Source of the DNA: Pontibacter russatus
GTDB lineage: Bacteria > Bacteroidota > Bacteroidia > Cytophagales > Hymenobacteraceae
Direction: 5' to 3'
Length of the DNA: 64,000 nucleotides
Assembly: GCF_009931655.1 (NCBI RefSeq)
Contig: NZ_CP047984.1
Location: forward strand, 1,860,001-1,924,000
Position 1 is the stretch's first letter. Each line of letters opens with the position of its first letter. Below, in pieces: positions 44,569 through 56,456 of this stretch. The translations under genes were made by a program, and so were the position numbers. The notes under the pieces are model-generated. The model saw nothing but the letters and a program-made list of their open reading frames with translations, did no database searches and was not told the origin of the DNA.

Positions 44569-46044
44569 GTGGGATGTAGTTCATGTTCTAGTGGCGGATG
44601 CAGCACCGGCGTAAGCGGCTGCAAAAGCAACGGCGGGTGCAGCACAGGGGGCTGCAACCGTTTAAATGTGTTCGACTGGCTCAGCGACATGGAATTGCCC
44701 ACGTCGTTTGAGGAGTTCGATATCATAGAAGTAAGATTCAAGGGAGGGCGCAAGGACTTCTTCCGCAACACCAACAGGTTGGACCTGACCACTGGCGACG
44801 CGGTGGTGGTAGACGTACCGAGCGGCCACCATATCGGTTTCGTGTCGCTGAAGGGCGAACTGGTGCGCCTGCAGATGCTGAAGAAGAAGGTGGACAACAA
44901 CGAGGAGATCCGCTCTATCTACCGCATCGCCAACGAGCGCGACATGGAGAAGTTCCAGGAGGTGCGCGACCTGGAGGCAGGCACCATGTACCGCGGCCGC
45001 GAGATTATCCAGCAGTTGCGGCTGCGGATGAAGCTGTCGGACGTGGAGTACCAGGCAGACAAAAGCAAAGCCACCTTCTACTACTCCGCCGACGACCGCG
45101 TGGACTTCCGCGACCTGATCAAGAAGCTGGCAGAGGAGTTTAAAGTACGCATTGAGATGCGCCAGATCAGCCTGCGCCACGAGGCCGGGCGGCTGGGCGG
45201 CATTGGCTCGTGCGGCCGCGAGCTCTGCTGCTCCACCTGGCTCACCGATTTCAAGAGCGTGTCTACCACGGCGGCCCGATACCAGAACCTTTCGCTCAAC
45301 CCGAGCAAACTCTCGGGGCAGTGCGGCCGCCTGAAGTGCTGCCTCAACTATGAGCTGGAGACTTATATGACGGCCCTGAAGGATATACCAAGCGTACACC
45401 GCCCTTTGCAGACGCAGCAAGGCGACGCCGTGCTGCAGAAAACCGACATCTTTAAGCGGATGATGTGGTTTGGCTACAAGGGCGACAACACCTGGTATCC
45501 GGTGCCGGTGGAGCGGGTGCAGGAGATCCTCGCGGCAAACGCCAAAGGGGTGGCCGTGGAGGCCCTGCTGCTGGAAGTGCCCGATGAGCCGAAGCAGAAT
45601 GAGTTTGTGGCACAGGTAGAGGGGAACCTCGAGCGGCTCGACGACAAGTTCAAGAGCAAAAAGAAGAAAAAGAAGAAAAGCAGAAAGCCTCTCGGCGATG
45701 CTGCCCAGCCGGAGCAGGCGGAACCCCGCGAGCCGGCGCTGAAGCAGGACAGAAGCCAGAGCCAGCCGGAGAAGCAGAGCGAGGCAACGGCCAGGCAGCA
45801 ACGCCCGCCGCGCAACCGCAACCGGAATAAGGAGGGAAGGCCTCCCCGCGAGGACAGGGAAAACCGTGCCCCACGTGAGAGCCGCGAAGGAAGAGACAAC
45901 AGGCCGCCTAAGGCAGCCAAGCCGGGGCCACCTGCAGGCCAGCCAGGAGCGGAAGGGCAGCAGCCCGACCGGAAACCGCGGCCACGCAAGCCCTTCCGGG
46001 GCAGGAAGCCGGACCAACCTAATCCCCCGCGCACCGATGCTTAG
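44569..46044 (+). CDS. ricT: PSP1-domain protein RicT (YaaT) with long basic tail
   Basis: 491 residues from a GTG at 44569. The first 30 residues hold eight Cys in GCSSC, GGCSTG, SGCK and GGC motifs, a likely iron-sulfur or zinc site, followed by LNVFDWLSDM, which is conserved in Bacteroidota. The PSP1 domain spans about 45-290 with GSCGRELCCSTWL and GQCGRLKCCLNYE, the characteristic Cys pairs. From about 355 to the end it is disordered and rich in Lys, Arg, Pro, Gln and Glu (KKKKKKK, RPPREDRENR), resembling an RNA-binding tail. RicT in Bacillus works with RicA/RicF on RNase Y activity; RicA and RicF are not seen here. Its stop overlaps the start of gldH. Confidence 0.9.
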   Translation: MGCSSCSSGGCSTGVSGCKSNGGCSTGGCNRLNVFDWLSDMELPTSFEEFDIIEVRFKGGRKDFFRNTNRLDLTTGDAVVVDVPSGHHIGFVSLKGELVRLQMLKKKVDNNEEIRSIYRIANERDMEKFQEVRDLEAGTMYRGREIIQQLRLRMKLSDVEYQADKSKATFYYSADDRVDFRDLIKKLAEEFKVRIEMRQISLRHEAGRLGGIGSCGRELCCSTWLTDFKSVSTTAARYQNLSLNPSKLSGQCGRLKCCLNYELETYMTALKDIPSVHRPLQTQQGDAVLQKTDIFKRMMWFGYKGDNTWYPVPVERVQEILAANAKGVAVEALLLEVPDEPKQNEFVAQVEGNLERLDDKFKSKKKKKKKSRKPLGDAAQPEQAEPREPALKQDRSQSQPEKQSEATARQQRPPRNRNRNKEGRPPREDRENRAPRESREGRDNRPPKAAKPGPPAGQPGAEGQQPDRKPRPRKPFRGRKPDQPNPPRTDA

Positions 46045-48088: not shown

Positions 48089-48461
48089 AGTATTAGTTCT
48101 GAAATAACAGCCTCTTTCAAAAAATAATTAAGCCGTACAACGCCAGCCACTTACCCGGTTCCCGACGGCATTTTCTACAAACCGCCCGGTGCTTCAGTGT
48201 CGCTCCCGTCGCCGCACGGCGGCCTCTGCTTTACCTATCCTGTCCAGCCTGCGGGCGGCCTCCATCACGCGGCAGAAGCACTTCCCCACAATAACCATGT
48301 GCCGTGCGGTTCGTATAGCTAAGACATTCAGTCACACTATAAAAACAGCATAAATGCTTTACATTTTAGTGTAACGGAATCTTATTTTTTACCACATCTG
48401 CTGCCCCTGTGGCTAACGTGTGCGGGGCCTGCAACAAACTTAATTTTAAACTATTATTCTC

Positions 48462-48467
48462 AAGGAG
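48462..48467 (+). promoter_or_regulatory. Strong Shine-Dalgarno before the low-complexity gene
   Basis: AAGGAG with 8-nt spacing to the ATG at 48476. Most starts in this window have no such site, so high translation or special control of this gene is plausible (inference). Confidence 0.6.
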
Positions 48468-48475
48468 ACCAAACT

Positions 48476-50422
48476 ATGAAAGACACAGAGAGAAATCAGA
48501 ACTCAAACGACGCGACGACCTCTTCGGATAGCTCGTTCGGAACACAGGGATCATCATCCTCAGGCAGCACTGCAAGCAACAGTAGCAGCAACAGCGGCGG
48601 AAGCAGCAGCGGGTTCGGATCGAACCAGAATTCCGGCATGGGCGCTACATCCGGCTCGTCCTCGTCATCTCCATCAGCGAAAGACGACAGCAGCAAAGCC
48701 TCTGCGTCCAGCTCAAAGTCATCTTCCTCAAAAGCCAAGTCAGGCGCCTCTTCTACTTCTAAAAAGGAGGCCAAAACGACCGATTCCAAGAGCGCGAAAT
48801 CCGCAGGGGCAACGGGCTCAGGCAGTAAATCATCTCAAAGCGGTTCAGACTCGAACCGCAGCCAAGGCCAGCTTTCTGAATACGGCAACTACGGCTCTAT
48901 GAGCAGCAGCGGCAGTTCAGACCAAACATCCCAGACCAGCACGGGCCAGGGAAGCTATGGCAACCAGAACTATGGCCAGGGCGGCAGCCAGGGCAACCAG
49001 AACAGCGGCTACGGATCGCAGGGAGGCTACGGATACGGCTCGCAGAACAGTAACTACGGCGGACAGAGCGGCTATGGGTACCAGGGCGATTATGGCTCGC
49101 AGAGTGGAAGCGGAAGCGGCTATGGAGGCTCCTACAACCAGAGCGGCGGCTACGGCAGCCAGAGCAGTTACGGGTCTCAGGGAAGCTACGGCGGCTCGCA
49201 GGGCGGCTTTAACTATGGCAGCCAGGGCGGCATGGAGGGTAACCGCGTTCGGAACCAGGACCAGGACTTTGGCGCGAGCAGAGGCGGCATGCAGGGCGGC
49301 TACCAGGATAGGGAAGGCGACAGCCAGGGTGGTGTTATTTCGGGCGGTACCTCCGGTGCCTTTGGCACGCAAGGCAACTCCTCGCAGGGGAACTATGGCA
49401 GCTACGAGAGCGGCCAGGGCGGCTACTCCAGCAGCAACCAGGGACCGAGGGGGGGCCAGGGCGGATCTTCTTCCAATAGAGGAGGCTACGGAAACCAGGG
49501 TGGCTACGGCTCTCAAAGCAGCTACGGCAGCAACCAGGGCGGATCGTGGCAGAGCGGCAGCCAGGACCGTGACAGAGGATATGGCATGATGAACGACCAG
49601 GGCGGCATGGGCCGCTACAACCAGCAGGGCTCACGCGGCCAGGGAGGCTACGGCTCGCAAGGCAATTATGGCTCTGCCTCGCAGGAATACGGCTATGGCT
49701 CGCAGGGTGGCTACGGTTCAGGCCGATCCTCCAACAGCGGCAATAACTACGGCGACAGAGACCGCTATGGCTCCCAGGGCTACGGCTCGTCCAGAGGCAT
49801 GAGCGAATACGACCACGACAACCAGGGCTCGGCAAGGGGCTATGACTCCCAAAGCTCGATGCAGGGCGGATATAGCAGCCAGGGCGGCTACGGCGGCTCC
49901 AGGGGCGGCTCTTACAACGACGAGTATGGCAGCAGCGGACGCTCCGCCCGCTACGGCTCCCAGGGCAGCGACTACGGCCAGGGGGGCTACGGTTCTGCTG
50001 GTGGCTACGGTAGTTCTGCCAGTAGAGGCGGTGGCTACGGCTCATCCTCCGACAGAGAAGACAGGGGCGGCTACGGCGACAGCAACAGCAGCCGCGGCAT
50101 AAGCGGTGGCTACGGTTACGGTTCAGGCAGTTCCAACCAGGGCGGCGACTTCTCTGGCCGCTACGGCCAGAGTGGCTATAGCGCAGGGGGTTACCAGCAG
50201 GGCGGCCGTGGCGGCGACCAAAGCCGATATGGCGCTATGGACAGCGGCACCTCATACTACAGCGACAACCGCGGCTCCAACTCCCGCGAGAACTACCGCA
50301 GCTACGGCAATCAGGATCAGGGGGGCTATGGCTCCTCCAACCAAGGAAACACCGGGCGCGACCAGGATCGCTTCGAATCCCGCCGCAGCGAGCGCTACAG
50401 AAACATGGGCAGAGGAGAATAA
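48476..50422 (+). CDS. FUS/EWS-like Gly-Ser-Tyr-Gln low-complexity protein
   Basis: 648 residues made almost wholly of low-complexity sequence; no signal peptide, membrane segment or folded domain. Residues 1-130 are Ser/Asn/Gly/Lys-rich (SSKASASSSKSSSSKAKSG). From about 135 to 470 there are dense imperfect repeats of GYGSQ, SYGSQ, NYGSQ and GGYG, with Tyr spaced every 6-10 residues. From about 360 onward Arg and Asp enter (RDRYGSQGYGSSRG, SRGGSYNDEYG), and the end is basic (ESRRSERYRNMGRGE). This [G/S]-Y-[G/S]-Q pattern with later R/D-rich parts is the sticker-spacer grammar of eukaryotic FET proteins that form condensates. The frame is intact over its whole length and base use is like the neighbours. 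It has its own terminator (50453-50484). Function unknown; I do not recognise a described bacterial family. Confidence 0.85.
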   Translation: MKDTERNQNSNDATTSSDSSFGTQGSSSSGSTASNSSSNSGGSSSGFGSNQNSGMGATSGSSSSSPSAKDDSSKASASSSKSSSSKAKSGASSTSKKEAKTTDSKSAKSAGATGSGSKSSQSGSDSNRSQGQLSEYGNYGSMSSSGSSDQTSQTSTGQGSYGNQNYGQGGSQGNQNSGYGSQGGYGYGSQNSNYGGQSGYGYQGDYGSQSGSGSGYGGSYNQSGGYGSQSSYGSQGSYGGSQGGFNYGSQGGMEGNRVRNQDQDFGASRGGMQGGYQDREGDSQGGVISGGTSGAFGTQGNSSQGNYGSYESGQGGYSSSNQGPRGGQGGSSSNRGGYGNQGGYGSQSSYGSNQGGSWQSGSQDRDRGYGMMNDQGGMGRYNQQGSRGQGGYGSQGNYGSASQEYGYGSQGGYGSGRSSNSGNNYGDRDRYGSQGYGSSRGMSEYDHDNQGSARGYDSQSSMQGGYSSQGGYGGSRGGSYNDEYGSSGRSARYGSQGSDYGQGGYGSAGGYGSSASRGGGYGSSSDREDRGGYGDSNSSRGISGGYGYGSGSSNQGGDFSGRYGQSGYSAGGYQQGGRGGDQSRYGAMDSGTSYYSDNRGSNSRENYRSYGNQDQGGYGSSNQGNTGRDQDRFESRRSERYRNMGRGE

Positions 50423-50452: not shown

Positions 50453-50484
50453 AAAAGCCACTCCTGTTTTGGGAGTGGCTTTTT
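50453..50484 (+). terminator. Intrinsic terminator after the low-complexity gene
   Basis: The stem AAAAGCCACTCC with GGGAGTGGCTTTT, a 6-nt loop and a following T-run. Confidence 0.9.
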
Positions 50485-50530
50485 TTTATAGGTTTATATA
50501 TAGGACAGATGCAGGAAGCCGTTTCGGAAG

Positions 50531-52517: not shown

Positions 52518-55500
52518 TTACATAGATTGCAGCCTGCGCAGCACTTCTTCCTGATCGGCCCAGAACTGGCGGCTATATACTTTCAGGTAGGGCCAATGCC
52601 GCTGCTGCAGCAGGTAGGGCACGTCTGCGTGCGAGTGGCGAACCGAGAGGTGGCTGTGGTATAAATCGTCATCCGTCAGCACCACGCCCGTATATTGCTG
52701 GTCGTGCTTACTGGTGAGGTCGGCGAAAGGCACTTCCTGCTCCAGCGTCCCGACCTCCTCCTGCAGCCGCTCCTTCAGCATCGGCACCTGCGTGGCCAGC
52801 GGTGTCTGCTTCGGTTTGTATTCAAAATACCGGCGGCTCACCTGCTGCGCATATTGCAGGTAGGCCTGCAGCAACTTCGGCCCCATATGCAGCGTGTTCT
52901 CCACCTGCAGTTGCTCTGCCCGGATGCTGCTCACTACCAACACCTGCTGCCTGGCGCGGGTGATGGCCACATTCAGGCGGTTCTCGCCCCCGGCCTGGTT
53001 CAGGCTGCCAAACTGCATCGCCAGCCGCCCCTGTGCATCGGGCGCGTAGCCCACCGACAGGATAATCACCTCCTTCTCATCGCCCTGAATGTTCTCAATG
53101 TTTTTCACCAGCACGGATGCAGGCAGAACCATATCCAGTTCCTGTGCCTTGTTTTCCAGCAGGTCCTGCACCAGCATCTGCTGCGCATAGTTGAAGGTGA
53201 TGACGCCCACCTCCTCCTGCCCCGCCTGCAGCAACTGCAGCACCAGTTCCACCACCTTCTCCGCCTCCGGCAGGTTGGTATTGTCCTGCCACAGACCGTG
53301 AACCTTCACAAATTGAATGGCGGGCGTGCGGGAGTTGGCGTCCTGCAGCTCGGGAATCAACTCCAGCCTGTAGCCATAAAAAAAGCGGTTTGAGAAATCT
53401 ATCAACTCCGGGTAGCGGCTGCGGTAGTGTTGCGTGAGCATGGTCTGGGGCAGGTAGAGGCCGCACAACTGCAGCAGCGATTCGGCAGACAGTTCCTCTG
53501 CCTCCTCTCCCCCACTGGCGCTCCAGCGGGCACGGTACAGGTCTGACGGCTTCAGCTGCTGCTCGTCGCCGGCCACCACCACCTGCCGCCCGCGCTGCAT
53601 GGCAGGTATACCCGACTCGGCATAGCACTGCGAGGCCTCATCGAAAATCACCAGGTCGAAGCAGGCCTCCAGCGGCAACGCCGCCGACACTGTTTCGGGC
53701 GAGGCCAGCCAGCAGGGCACGAGGTCCAGCATCTCGGCGGCGAACAGCGCGAACAGTTTTCGGATGGGGTACAGGCTGCGCTTTTTGATCACCTGCGCCT
53801 GCAACCTGCGGTACGTCACGGTGTTGCCCAAACGGTTCTGCTCCAAATTGCTGTAGGTCTGCTCCCGCAACTGCGAGAGCACAATCTCCGTGCTCAGGCG
53901 CTGCTTTTCCTGCAACAGTTCCTGCAACTCCGCCTCCAGCCGCTCCAGTTCCCCGTTAGAAGGCATCCGCAGTTCAGGGTGCTCGGTCTCCAGCTCGTTT
54001 ATCCAGGCCAGGTACAGGCTGTTCAGGAACAGCTTTTCTCCCGCTTCCGCCGAGGCGCCGCACTCTGCCATCAGCAGCTGCGCCACCTCCCGCTCGGGCT
54101 TGGTGAGCGCGGCATATACGGTGTCGTGCGCCACCAGCGGTTCGAAGTGTTTTTCCAGCTCCTGCAATAGCCTGTTGCCGTGCTGTGGCTGCGCCACCAG
54201 CGCCTTTACCTGCGCCTCCGGCAGCCACTTCAGCCACGCGTTGTATTGCGTGGCAAAAGCCTGGATGGCCTGCGTCAATGCCTTCAGGTGCGCGACCAAA
54301 TCTACTTTCTGCAGTATTTTCTCTTCCAGCACCCTTTCGCGGTGCAGCTGGCGCAGCAGTTTGTGCGCTGCAAGCGCCTGCTCCACTGCCTTCAGCTTTT
54401 GCAGCACCGCCTCTTTCGGCTCCGTAGCCTGCAGGGAGTAGTTGACGCTCTTGTTCAGCTGTTGCAGTTGTTCCTGCGCCTGCTGGCGAAGGATTAGCCG
54501 TTGCTGCAGCAGGGCCACGTTCTCTTCGCTCAGCTCCTGCCTATACAGGCCCAGCGCCTGCTGCAGCAGCTTTTTATCCTCCGAAAAAATCCAGCTGATG
54601 CTTTTGAGCCAGTCGGTGCGCTGCTCCCCGTAGGCGGCAATCGCCTTTTTCAGGGCCGGCAGCTGCAAGGCAGGAATCGTGGTGTCCGGGGCAGGCGTGG
54701 CCGTATAAAGCTTCTCTGTCTTTACCGCCAACAACTTCAGCTCCTCGGGTTTTACCTGCCCCTGCACGAGCGCCTGCACCGTTGGCAGCACATCCGGCAA
54801 GCGCAGCAGCTTTTGCAGCTCGGTCATGTTCTGGAGCGCCACTTTATAGGCCGTGAAATTCGCTAAGGTAAACGGGAAGCCGCTGAGGCTGCTGATGCTT
54901 TGCTGTAACTCGGCATACTGCTCCGGAAGCTTCTTTATCGCCTGCTCCAGTTGCTGCCGCTCCGGCCAGCCGAAGCCCTTCATGCTGTGCCGCTCCTTCC
55001 ATATAAAATCTTCCTGCTGAAAAGGGACGGCCTTCTGCAGGTACTCCCGCAGGCGCGGCAGAAACTCGGAGACGGTGGTGGCGGTAAAGTACCTGAAGTC
55101 TGTGGGGAGCAGGATGTGCGGCTGCTGCAGGCTGCTGCGCAGGTACAGTTCTTTGGCAGACCAGCCGCAGCGGCCCGTATCGAAGAGGGCTTGCTTGAAA
55201 GATGTCAGTTTCATCAGGCACCTGTTAATGTCACGGCTCACTTCCAAAAACTGCCGGTCGGTGTAGAGGCTGTTGAGGGCGAGGTTCTGCTTTTTATAGT
55301 CGTCTATGGCTTCAATCTGGCGGAGCAGCTGGCCATATATGCTGCTGCGGTCGGCGTTGATGTCATGCACCAGCCCTGCGAACGGACCGAGCCCTTTCTG
55401 CGACAGGCGCTTATAAACCACGTCGAGGGCGGCGCGTTTCTGGCTCACCACCAGCACTTTCTTGCCCCGCGCCGTGAAGTCCGACACCAGGTTGCAGATG

Positions 55501-56456
55501 AGCTGCGATTTGCCCGTGCCCGGCGGCCCCTGCACCACCAGCGATTTCCCCTGCTTCACGGCCTGCAGCGCCGCCTCCTGCGAAGCATCCATCTCAAACA
55601 CAGTAAAAGTCTGCTGTGCCTGGTTCACGGCCGGTGTGTTCTCAGCCATTGCCGGCGCAAACAGGTCCTCCATCTCCTGCAATTCGCCCCGTTCCAGCAG
55701 CGCATCATAATCTGCGAGCAGGTAGGAGGCCGCCTGCGGGTATATACCCAATACCGCCTCCTGCACCAGATGGAGTTGCCCCGGCTGCAGCGCCTCCTCG
55801 TATTCTGTTTTTTTATAATCTCGGAAAGGCGTGAGCTTGTCTGCAAAAAACCCGCTCCCCACGTTCAGCTCCAGTTGGTGCTCCTTCAGCAATTCATATA
55901 CCTTCGTCCGGAACTCCAGCGGCTGGCGCGGCAGCGTGCTTATATCCAACTCCGTGAGCGCCTCCGCCAGCGGCGTGCCCATGTAGTGCGCGTAAGCCAG
56001 CAGAAAGCTCTGGTTAAACTGCGGCGGCTGCGAGGCATCGGGCACCACCTCCCACTCCTGCGCCGCGTTCACCTGCAGCTGCACCGGGAAGAACAGCAAG
56101 GGCGAACGCACGGCGGTGCCGTCAGAGAATTTACCATGCACGAAAGGCCAGCCTATATATAACTCGCGGCTGCCGCGCTCCTCAAAAATTATCTCCGCCT
56201 TGCGCCGGATATAGCGCAGCCGCTGGCTCACCGCTGCCACCGGGGCATGGCGGCTGTCGGCATAAGGGCTCAGGCTGATGCTAGCTTTGCCCGACAGCAG
56301 CTTCTCCACCACTGCAAAGGCTGGCTGGCTGTTCAGGAAATCGAGCGCCTCCACATCCAGGTGCATCTCCCGCGACAGGCGCAGCAGCAGCAGGGCTCTG
56401 TTGCTGGAGCCTATGTTGAGTAGCCTGCGCCGATAGTTTTTGAGGATGTCTTTCAT
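52518..56456 (-). CDS. DUF4011-type SF1 helicase with degenerate C-terminal nuclease-like domain
   Basis: 1312 residues. The N-terminal 1-260 resembles the DUF4011 domain (RLLNIGSSNRALLLLRL). Walker A VVQGPPGTGKSQLICNLV is near 305-320. A Leu/Gln/Lys-rich, mostly helical insertion of about 600 residues follows. The second half of the motor has VIFDEASQCYAESG (about 935), VVAGDEQQLKPSDLY and NVAITRARQQVLVVSS (about 1165). The last 80 residues align in pattern with the REase_MTES_1575 (VSR-like) nuclease domain: TDDDLYHSHLSVRHSHADV, then HWPYLKVYSRQFWADQEE. The usual IExDG acidic pair reads VVLTDDD, so catalysis may be lost. Related helicases occur in stress and anti-phage contexts, but no partner defence genes are next to it. 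Confidence 0.82.
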   Translation of the reverse strand: MKDILKNYRRRLLNIGSSNRALLLLRLSREMHLDVEALDFLNSQPAFAVVEKLLSGKASISLSPYADSRHAPVAAVSQRLRYIRRKAEIIFEERGSRELYIGWPFVHGKFSDGTAVRSPLLFFPVQLQVNAAQEWEVVPDASQPPQFNQSFLLAYAHYMGTPLAEALTELDISTLPRQPLEFRTKVYELLKEHQLELNVGSGFFADKLTPFRDYKKTEYEEALQPGQLHLVQEAVLGIYPQAASYLLADYDALLERGELQEMEDLFAPAMAENTPAVNQAQQTFTVFEMDASQEAALQAVKQGKSLVVQGPPGTGKSQLICNLVSDFTARGKKVLVVSQKRAALDVVYKRLSQKGLGPFAGLVHDINADRSSIYGQLLRQIEAIDDYKKQNLALNSLYTDRQFLEVSRDINRCLMKLTSFKQALFDTGRCGWSAKELYLRSSLQQPHILLPTDFRYFTATTVSEFLPRLREYLQKAVPFQQEDFIWKERHSMKGFGWPERQQLEQAIKKLPEQYAELQQSISSLSGFPFTLANFTAYKVALQNMTELQKLLRLPDVLPTVQALVQGQVKPEELKLLAVKTEKLYTATPAPDTTIPALQLPALKKAIAAYGEQRTDWLKSISWIFSEDKKLLQQALGLYRQELSEENVALLQQRLILRQQAQEQLQQLNKSVNYSLQATEPKEAVLQKLKAVEQALAAHKLLRQLHRERVLEEKILQKVDLVAHLKALTQAIQAFATQYNAWLKWLPEAQVKALVAQPQHGNRLLQELEKHFEPLVAHDTVYAALTKPEREVAQLLMAECGASAEAGEKLFLNSLYLAWINELETEHPELRMPSNGELERLEAELQELLQEKQRLSTEIVLSQLREQTYSNLEQNRLGNTVTYRRLQAQVIKKRSLYPIRKLFALFAAEMLDLVPCWLASPETVSAALPLEACFDLVIFDEASQCYAESGIPAMQRGRQVVVAGDEQQLKPSDLYRARWSASGGEEAEELSAESLLQLCGLYLPQTMLTQHYRSRYPELIDFSNRFFYGYRLELIPELQDANSRTPAIQFVKVHGLWQDNTNLPEAEKVVELVLQLLQAGQEEVGVITFNYAQQMLVQDLLENKAQELDMVLPASVLVKNIENIQGDEKEVIILSVGYAPDAQGRLAMQFGSLNQAGGENRLNVAITRARQQVLVVSSIRAEQLQVENTLHMGPKLLQAYLQYAQQVSRRYFEYKPKQTPLATQVPMLKERLQEEVGTLEQEVPFADLTSKHDQQYTGVVLTDDDLYHSHLSVRHSHADVPYLLQQRHWPYLKVYSRQFWADQEEVLRRLQSM

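Follow-up and report, generated by a model that had tools for sequence, protein, structure and literature searches.

The LC Gene and Its Product

The window analysed in this work, i.e., the whole stretch of 64,000 nucleotides from the genome of Pontibacter russatus (contig NZ_CP047984.1), harbors at positions 48476–50422 (+) an intact ORF coding for a protein of 648 amino acids, which is predicted to be wholly disordered and is referred to here as the low-complexity (LC) protein. It is known from six genera of one family (Pontibacter, designated g1, and five others designated g23 to g27), mostly at the same chromosomal address. The first-pass annotation of this DNA had described a frame rich in Ser, Gly, Tyr, and Gln, and the residue counts agree with it: 169 Gly, 156 Ser, 61 Gln, 58 Tyr, 42 Asn, 37 Arg, 33 Asp, and 12 Lys, with no Cys.

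The chain opens with the motif MKDTERNQ (48476–48499, +), whose usual form in the genus is MKDNEKNQ or MKENEKNQ, and carries near its C-terminus the heptapeptide RRSERYR (50381–50401, +; usually RRSDRYR). Three parts can be recognized. The first one, up to about residue 130, is Ser/Thr-rich and contains a Lys block (the Ser/Thr/Lys block, residues 66–120, 48671–48835, +) with a net charge of +7. The second part is a Tyr/Gly/Ser/Gln tract, the first Tyr being residue 136, and the third is a longer tract to which Arg and Asp/Glu are added in equal numbers, with a net charge of 0 over residues 251–648. Lys and Arg are segregated along the chain, the Lys block coming first and the Arg block later: after residue 200, no Lys occurs in 62 of the 71 sequences read from g1, g23, g24, and g27, and a single one in the other nine. 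The Arg-rich, RG-like character that had been attributed to the C-terminal half was found as described, since the second half contains 31 of the 37 Arg of a protein with 14 RG and 7 RGG. The same annotation had suggested nucleic acid binding through a basic C-terminal end; this was rejected, because the last 60 residues have a net charge of +1 and the basic end on which the suggestion rested is absent.

The AlphaFold2 models, both based on shallow alignments, had a mean pLDDT of 37.8, all residues scoring below 70, for the window LC protein (20 rows) and a mean pLDDT of 43.2 for a short form from g26 (15 rows). No family of Pfam or NCBIfam was matched; neither an RNA recognition motif nor a zinc finger was found with these models, nor any RNA-binding or nucleic acid-binding domain, nor a known sorting domain. 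Among 109 family members, no signal-peptide-like hydrophobic stretch was detected in the first 45 residues (0/109), and no Cys (0/109). The family models, the pLDDT values, and the N-termini hence agree with the initial impression that a folded domain, a signal peptide, and a sorting domain are lacking. As for other candidate relationships, kinship with FUS at the sequence level was rejected, the only phmmer match in the PDB being a chance one with an antibody light chain (E = 5.6), with the proviso that the bias correction of phmmer may mask low-complexity matches. A link with defence systems (no PADLOC family for the window LC protein or the short g26 form), a structured RNA (no Rfam match between 47500 and 51000), and a spread by plasmids (no match in a plasmid search) were rejected too.

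Conservation in Pontibacter and in the Related Genera

All the 36 further genomes of Pontibacter were matched by the LC protein in a protein search in which every genome was listed, versus 0/22 genomes belonging to other families of the order. In a draw from the family, a match was found in each of the 49 other genus genomes among those listed; the draw also held 79 genomes without a match beyond those listed. The relatives harboring the protein include Pontibacter sp. E15-1, P. pamirensis, P. diazotrophicus, an uncultured Pontibacter, and Botryobacter ruber. In all the 50 genus loci read, the frame is open and codes for 565–717 amino acids; several search rows flag one TAA within the match range, and the extracted frames are open over their whole length. 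The dN/dS ratio of 11 pairs of LC genes ranged from 0.042 to 0.136, versus 0.03–0.12 for the neighbouring exo gene, some of these pairs sharing one clade and dS being near saturation in the two pairs involving the window gene. The cleanest pair (707 codons, no indels) differs by 10 non-synonymous and 63 synonymous changes. The other eight close pairs show 7 to 14 indel runs, and the two pairs with the window protein show 27 and 17, so that the tract grows and shrinks in frame. The view that the intact frame reflects selection is thus well founded: the loss of the frame in close relatives, which the first-pass annotation had named as what would speak against its condensate reading, was not seen in the 50 loci, and the comparison of homologues that it had proposed disclosed homologues family-wide and purifying selection.

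Outside the genus, BLAST returned one match (E = 2.6e-4), and the wider family was disclosed by synteny and motifs. At the loci anchored on the exo gene, an LC frame of 533–729 amino acids was present in all the 21 loci read of g23, g24, and g27; these represent 21 of the 25 close exo matches outside the genus, locus L058 having been found through the LC protein itself. When 120 family genomes were searched with a degenerate DNA pattern encoding GGSY-x-[DE]EY, a single match was obtained in each of 84, i.e., 42/44 in g1, 8/8 in g24, 16/16 in g27, 5/8 in g25, 13/42 in g26, and 0/2 in g23, where M replaces the last Y of the signature. The backward control of this pattern gave 1 match, and none of 246 genomes from other families of the order was positive, in a draw in which the pattern occurred in 20 of 45 family genomes. 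A profile built from 15 g25/g26 members matched 84 of 160 family genomes, all of them belonging to g25 or g26 and including every g25 (8) and g26 (42) genome shown in the pattern search; locus L191, devoid of a profile match, was excluded from the counts of the loci read. Since the profile did not match the g1 members among these family genomes, the link between g1 and g25/g26 rests on the slot, the motif, and the composition, not on a profile score.

The genes for PSP1, GldH, or SdiA adjoin the LC gene in all seven g25 loci and in 23 of the 31 g26 loci read. In the other eight g26 loci (L208, L210–L212, L214–L216, and L223), the LC homologue lies away from these three genes. As far as the genomes searched can tell, the LC gene is usually single-copy and is family-wide; a second copy is possible in some g26 genomes, such as G095. 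Downstream of the LC gene, a large helicase-type protein (52518–56456, −) matches the PADLOC candidate defence model PDC-S37 (E = 1.2e-150), and is perhaps a housekeeping protein, since it recurs at this position in the genus loci.

Tyrosine Spacing and Its Loss in Part of g26

The spacing of the aromatic residues in the window LC protein is more even than in shuffled sequences (z = −3.8), which bears out the evenly spaced Tyr stickers described at first sight, and the unit [GS]Y[GS] occurs 29 times, versus a shuffled mean of 14.8. The "dozens" of longer [GS]YG[SN]Q units were an overestimate, a strict count giving 10 (shuffled mean 0.2). Both properties extend to all the 71 sequences from g1, g23, g24, and g27, with z from −3.0 to −5.3 for the spacing and [GS]Y[GS] above the shuffled mean in every case. 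Tyr retention over the 11 pairs is 94.7%, a value exceeded only by those of K and Q. The even spacing may in part be a by-product of the growth of GYGSQ-like repeats. Residues 131–648 contain 12.4% aromatic residues, which is lower than the 15–20% reported for prion-like domains (PMC9748015).

Beyond these four genera, all the seven g25 members and 10 of the 31 g26 members read are Tyr-rich, one of the latter (L181) having nonetheless a net charge of −26. The other 21 g26 members are Tyr-poor forms with 3–5% Tyr, richer in Pro/Ala and with a net charge of −18 to −37; in these the even spacing fades (z from −0.1 to −2.1), while the gene and the short motifs are retained. The 31 members were not randomly drawn, 13 having been retrieved by the motif pattern and 18 from the profile list, so that 21/31 is not to be taken as a frequency. 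The Tyr content was also compared with a tree of the linked genes (PSP1, GldH, and SdiA), obtained for 65 of 75 loci by a quick search and rooted at the midpoint; ten loci with too little linked sequence were left out, namely eight without PSP1, GldH, or SdiA nearby and hence outside the slot (L208, L210, L211, L212, L214, L215, L216, and L223), as well as L099 and L108. Five changes across a threshold of 6% Tyr were counted, and all the Tyr-poor rows fall within g26, so that, with the midpoint as the only root, the Tyr-rich state is probably ancestral. The FUS-like grammar therefore looks ancestral but dispensable. Since in g26 the gene and its motifs outlast the Tyr stickers, Tyr-driven condensation, if it occurs, cannot be the whole, indispensable function of this family; no other result weighs as heavily against a purely FUS-like reading.

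Motif Islands

The alignment of the genus members consists of near-identical islands amid indel-rich sequence. Island 1 (residues 178–208, 49007–49099, +; GYGSQGGYGYGSQNSNYGGQSGYGYQGDYGS) is nearly invariant in the 20 aligned genus members. Island 2 (residues 243–282, 49202–49321, +; GGFNYGSQGGMEGNRVRNQDQDFGASRGGMQGGYQDREGD) might be the counterpart of ENxxSGASRGEFG in g25/g26, a possible pairing made by eye. Island 3 (residues 440–484, 49793–49927, +) ends in the signature GGSYNDEY (49904–49927), and Island 4 spans residues 571–606 (50186–50293, +; GGYQQGGRGGDQSRYGAMDSGTSYYSDNRGSNSREN). The islands of g25/g26 read ENxxSGASRGEFG..TQGGYGN, NDNGS..GYSxDYGxSS, RNQxEDY, GSxGGSYNDEY, RGDY, and DYGS, some further g26 members having GGSYNDP or GGSYNDA in place of GGSYNDEY. 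The alignment across genera, from g1 to g26 (20 rows), contains 2 invariant columns and is weak outside GGSYNDEY, which is the sole obvious cross-genus motif, the other pairings having been made by eye.

Regulatory Signals and Expression

An intergenic block at 48290–48344 (+), including GGTTCGTATAGCTAAGACATTC at 48308–48329 and located between the csp gene and the LC gene, some 150 nt upstream of the start codon of the latter, is conserved among 50 genus genomes, with many columns kept in 70% to more than 90% of them and most of the flanks not kept; it is a probable promoter or operator. The block consensus, allowing up to 3 mismatches, was found once in each of 4 out of 12 genomes (4/6 of the genus and 0/6 of the others), always upstream of the LC gene; a regulon sharing this block was consequently rejected. 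Directly downstream of the gene, a hairpin followed by a T run (50453–50487, +), terminator-like as read from the sequence, suggests that the LC gene forms its own transcription unit.

The start codon is preceded by the Shine–Dalgarno (SD) sequence AAGGAGA (48462–48468, +), whose predicted pairing with the 16S tail is −8.3 kcal/mol. An SD (GGAGA or longer) is present in 49/50 loci of g1, 11/12 of g27, and 2/2 of g23 (62/64 in total), and was not found before the LC gene in g24 (0/7), g25 (0/7), and g26 (0/31); the last value is less certain because the g26 starts were set by a simple rule and some of them are doubtful, falling inside the frame (e.g., L181, L210–L212, and L214). At eight neighbouring genes, an SD occurs at 5 of 223 starts, four of these five being at PSP1, whose start is uncertain. 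This PSP1-domain-like gene (44569–46044, +) has AGGAGA upstream in 4 of the 5 readable genus starts. In the genome of the window, AGGAGA or GGAGG precedes 4 of 263 background genes, and a pairing of −7 kcal/mol or stronger was computed for 28 of 263 genes versus 39 of 263 mock windows (one genome, with genes and starts set by a crude rule). It follows that SD use is not general and that a lone site of −8.3 kcal/mol would be unremarkable if it were not conserved. The LC gene combines a conserved strong SD with an otherwise SD-poor genome and, on these comparisons, its SD is conserved and unusual.

In the ribosomes of Bacteroidia, the anti-SD is reported to be hidden by bS21, and ribosomes lacking bS21 to prefer mRNAs with a strong SD (McNutt et al., PMC9976891); the same work reports that rpsU is stimulated only through an extended pairing (below −13 kcal/mol), and describes, in some Bacteroidia, SDs of about the strength of that of the LC gene at other genes for ribosomal proteins. 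The pairing of the LC gene in the genus (median −8.5, strongest −11.2 kcal/mol) falls short of the extended one. Its SD may be used by altered (bS21-lacking) ribosomes and, being conserved, could serve to test whether ribosomes with an exposed anti-SD control further genes of Bacteroidia besides those for ribosomal proteins. An autoregulation of rpsU by its SD in this family was rejected, all the 15 rpsU leaders being weak (−0.3 to −5.1 kcal/mol).

As regards the expression level, the LC gene reaches, with respect to 199 background genes, the 97th percentile of amino-acid-corrected codon adaptedness; this is at most a weak hint, since its raw CAI is average (0.744 versus a background mean of 0.745) and the bias of ribosomal proteins is mild in this genome (0.770). 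The main text of a Pontibacter transcriptome study (PMC4460873) contains no mention of cold shock, glycine, highly expressed, or up-regulated.

Possible Role of the LC Protein

Judging from its sequences, the protein singled out by the first-pass annotation is real and unusual: it belongs to a family that is predicted to be disordered and has conserved motifs, and most of the lineages read display the FET-like wording, which is lost in part of g26. The reading that we tentatively prefer is that of a cytoplasmic, multivalent, disordered scaffold, prone to condensation in the Tyr-rich lineages. Motif islands such as GGSYNDEY would bind one or more putative partners, and evenly spaced Tyr together with Arg would drive self-association and condensation in Pontibacter, g23, g24, g25, g27, and part of g26. 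In the Tyr-poor members of g26, the chain would probably have lost its self-association wholly or in part, and persist as an acidic, hydrophilic carrier of the motifs. The synthesis of the protein would probably be conditional, governed by the conserved block upstream of the gene and, in g1, g23, and g27, by an SD that normal Bacteroidia ribosomes reportedly ignore. A condensate scaffold had already been proposed from the window sequence: the even-Tyr grammar across genera, the retention of Tyr, the lack of an export signal, and the conserved frame speak for it, while the basic end has fallen and the Tyr-poor g26 members weigh against it. The family also permits a direct question about the purpose of the sticker grammar, in that a core-like gene with a product predicted to be disordered throughout is under purifying selection comparable to that of an enzyme and has both Tyr-rich and Tyr-poor homologues.

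The strongest rival is a hydrophilin-like protectant, that is, an abundant, hydrophilic, Gly-rich disordered chain shielding proteins or membranes during drying or freezing, with no condensate required. Hydrophilins have more than 6% Gly and a hydrophilicity index above 1, and all the 109 members (88 Tyr-rich and 21 Tyr-poor) fit these numbers, with Gly above 6% and a GRAVY of −2.05 to −1.09, i.e., below −1, also where the Tyr grammar is lost. The cold-shock gene that adjoins the LC gene in the genus and the high corrected codon adaptedness point in the same direction; however, the raw CAI does not, and a bulk protectant would need neither nearly invariant islands nor even Tyr spacing nor a dN/dS of about 0.06. 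We consider this explanation possible, though on the unlikely side.

A role linked to RNA appears rather improbable. According to this explanation, the LC protein would form, through its Lys block and its Tyr/Arg tract, a scaffold with the neighbouring cold-shock protein, giving rise to a ribonucleoprotein body under stress or cold. The gene for this CspA-type protein (63 amino acids, PF00313; 47863–48054, −) is divergent from the LC gene and lies upstream of it in all the 50 genus loci read, 347–584 bases away, as well as in 9 of the 21 loci of g23/g24/g27 and in 23 of the 31 g26 loci; the net charge of +7 of the Lys block is also in keeping with such a role. However, no csp gene was found upstream in the 12 g27 loci (within 1.2 kb) or in the 7 g25 loci (within 1.5 kb), both genera being Tyr-rich; the chain is otherwise neutral, an RNA-binding domain was not found by the family models, and divergent neighbours may act separately. 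More improbable still is the most elaborate version, in which the LC protein would be a stand-alone, FET-like analogue of a stress-granule scaffold, fixed throughout the family, translated by anti-SD-exposed ribosomes and condensing with the RNA chaperone encoded by the adjacent cold-shock gene; the lineages of g26 that lost the stickers and kept the client-binding motifs would then be a natural case in which condensation and recruitment are uncoupled.

An exported or matrix protein, adhesive or silk-like, is suggested by the Gly/Ser/Tyr composition, which resembles that of structural proteins, but it is very unlikely, given that none of the 109 members has a hydrophobic N-terminal stretch or Cys and that no known sorting domain was found. 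Lastly, the low complexity of the region, together with the overlapping frames present on both its strands, might recall a repetitive junk frame open by chance, an explanation that can practically be dismissed in view of the 50 open genus loci, the slot kept in 21/21 loci of other genera, and a dN/dS of 0.04–0.14.

Comparison with Known Systems

The LC protein was not found in the literature searched on bacterial prion-like, low-complexity, disordered, or condensate proteins and on Pontibacter or Hymenobacter, of which few subscription papers were covered; for disorder in Pontibacter, the titles retrieved deal with curli, bacterial amyloid, and biofilm matrix filaments, and none with the LC protein. 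With hydrophilins and LEA-like proteins it shares a Gly content above 6% and a strong hydrophilicity, to which it adds motif islands and Tyr stickers that, to our knowledge, are not part of that class. PopZ is a bacterial disordered condensate scaffold, and the idea of a disordered multivalent scaffold is common to both; unlike PopZ, the LC protein has no predicted folded oligomerisation module, and its motif has so far been detected in a single family.

The FET proteins (FUS, EWS, and TAF15) carry an RNA recognition motif, a zinc finger, and a basic RGG tail. The LC protein resembles them in the Gly/Ser/Gln/Tyr composition, in the [GS]Y[GS] units, and in the Arg/Gly of its later part; a Tyr-rich prion-like domain with evenly spaced aromatics is present, but a basic RGG tail is not, the RG and RGG repeats lying in a tract of net charge 0 (residues 251–648). 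In contrast with FET proteins, the LC chain stands alone, with no RNA recognition motif or zinc finger, has fewer aromatic residues, and bears a Lys block in front. If it condenses, it would represent a FET-like grammar in a bacterium in the absence of an RNA-binding domain. An even spacing of the aromatic residues (PMC9748015) and a strong conservation of Tyr (PMC7947763) are reported for FUS, as in the LC protein; however, the prion-like domain of FUS is reported to evolve three times faster than the rest of the protein (PMC7947763), whereas the LC chain evolves about as slowly as the neighbouring exo enzyme. Among bacteria, the Rho factor of Clostridium botulinum is described as a prion-like protein (PMC4703818). 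Both proteins have a prion-like composition, with the difference that in Rho it is confined to a domain of a termination factor, whereas the LC protein is predicted to be disordered throughout.
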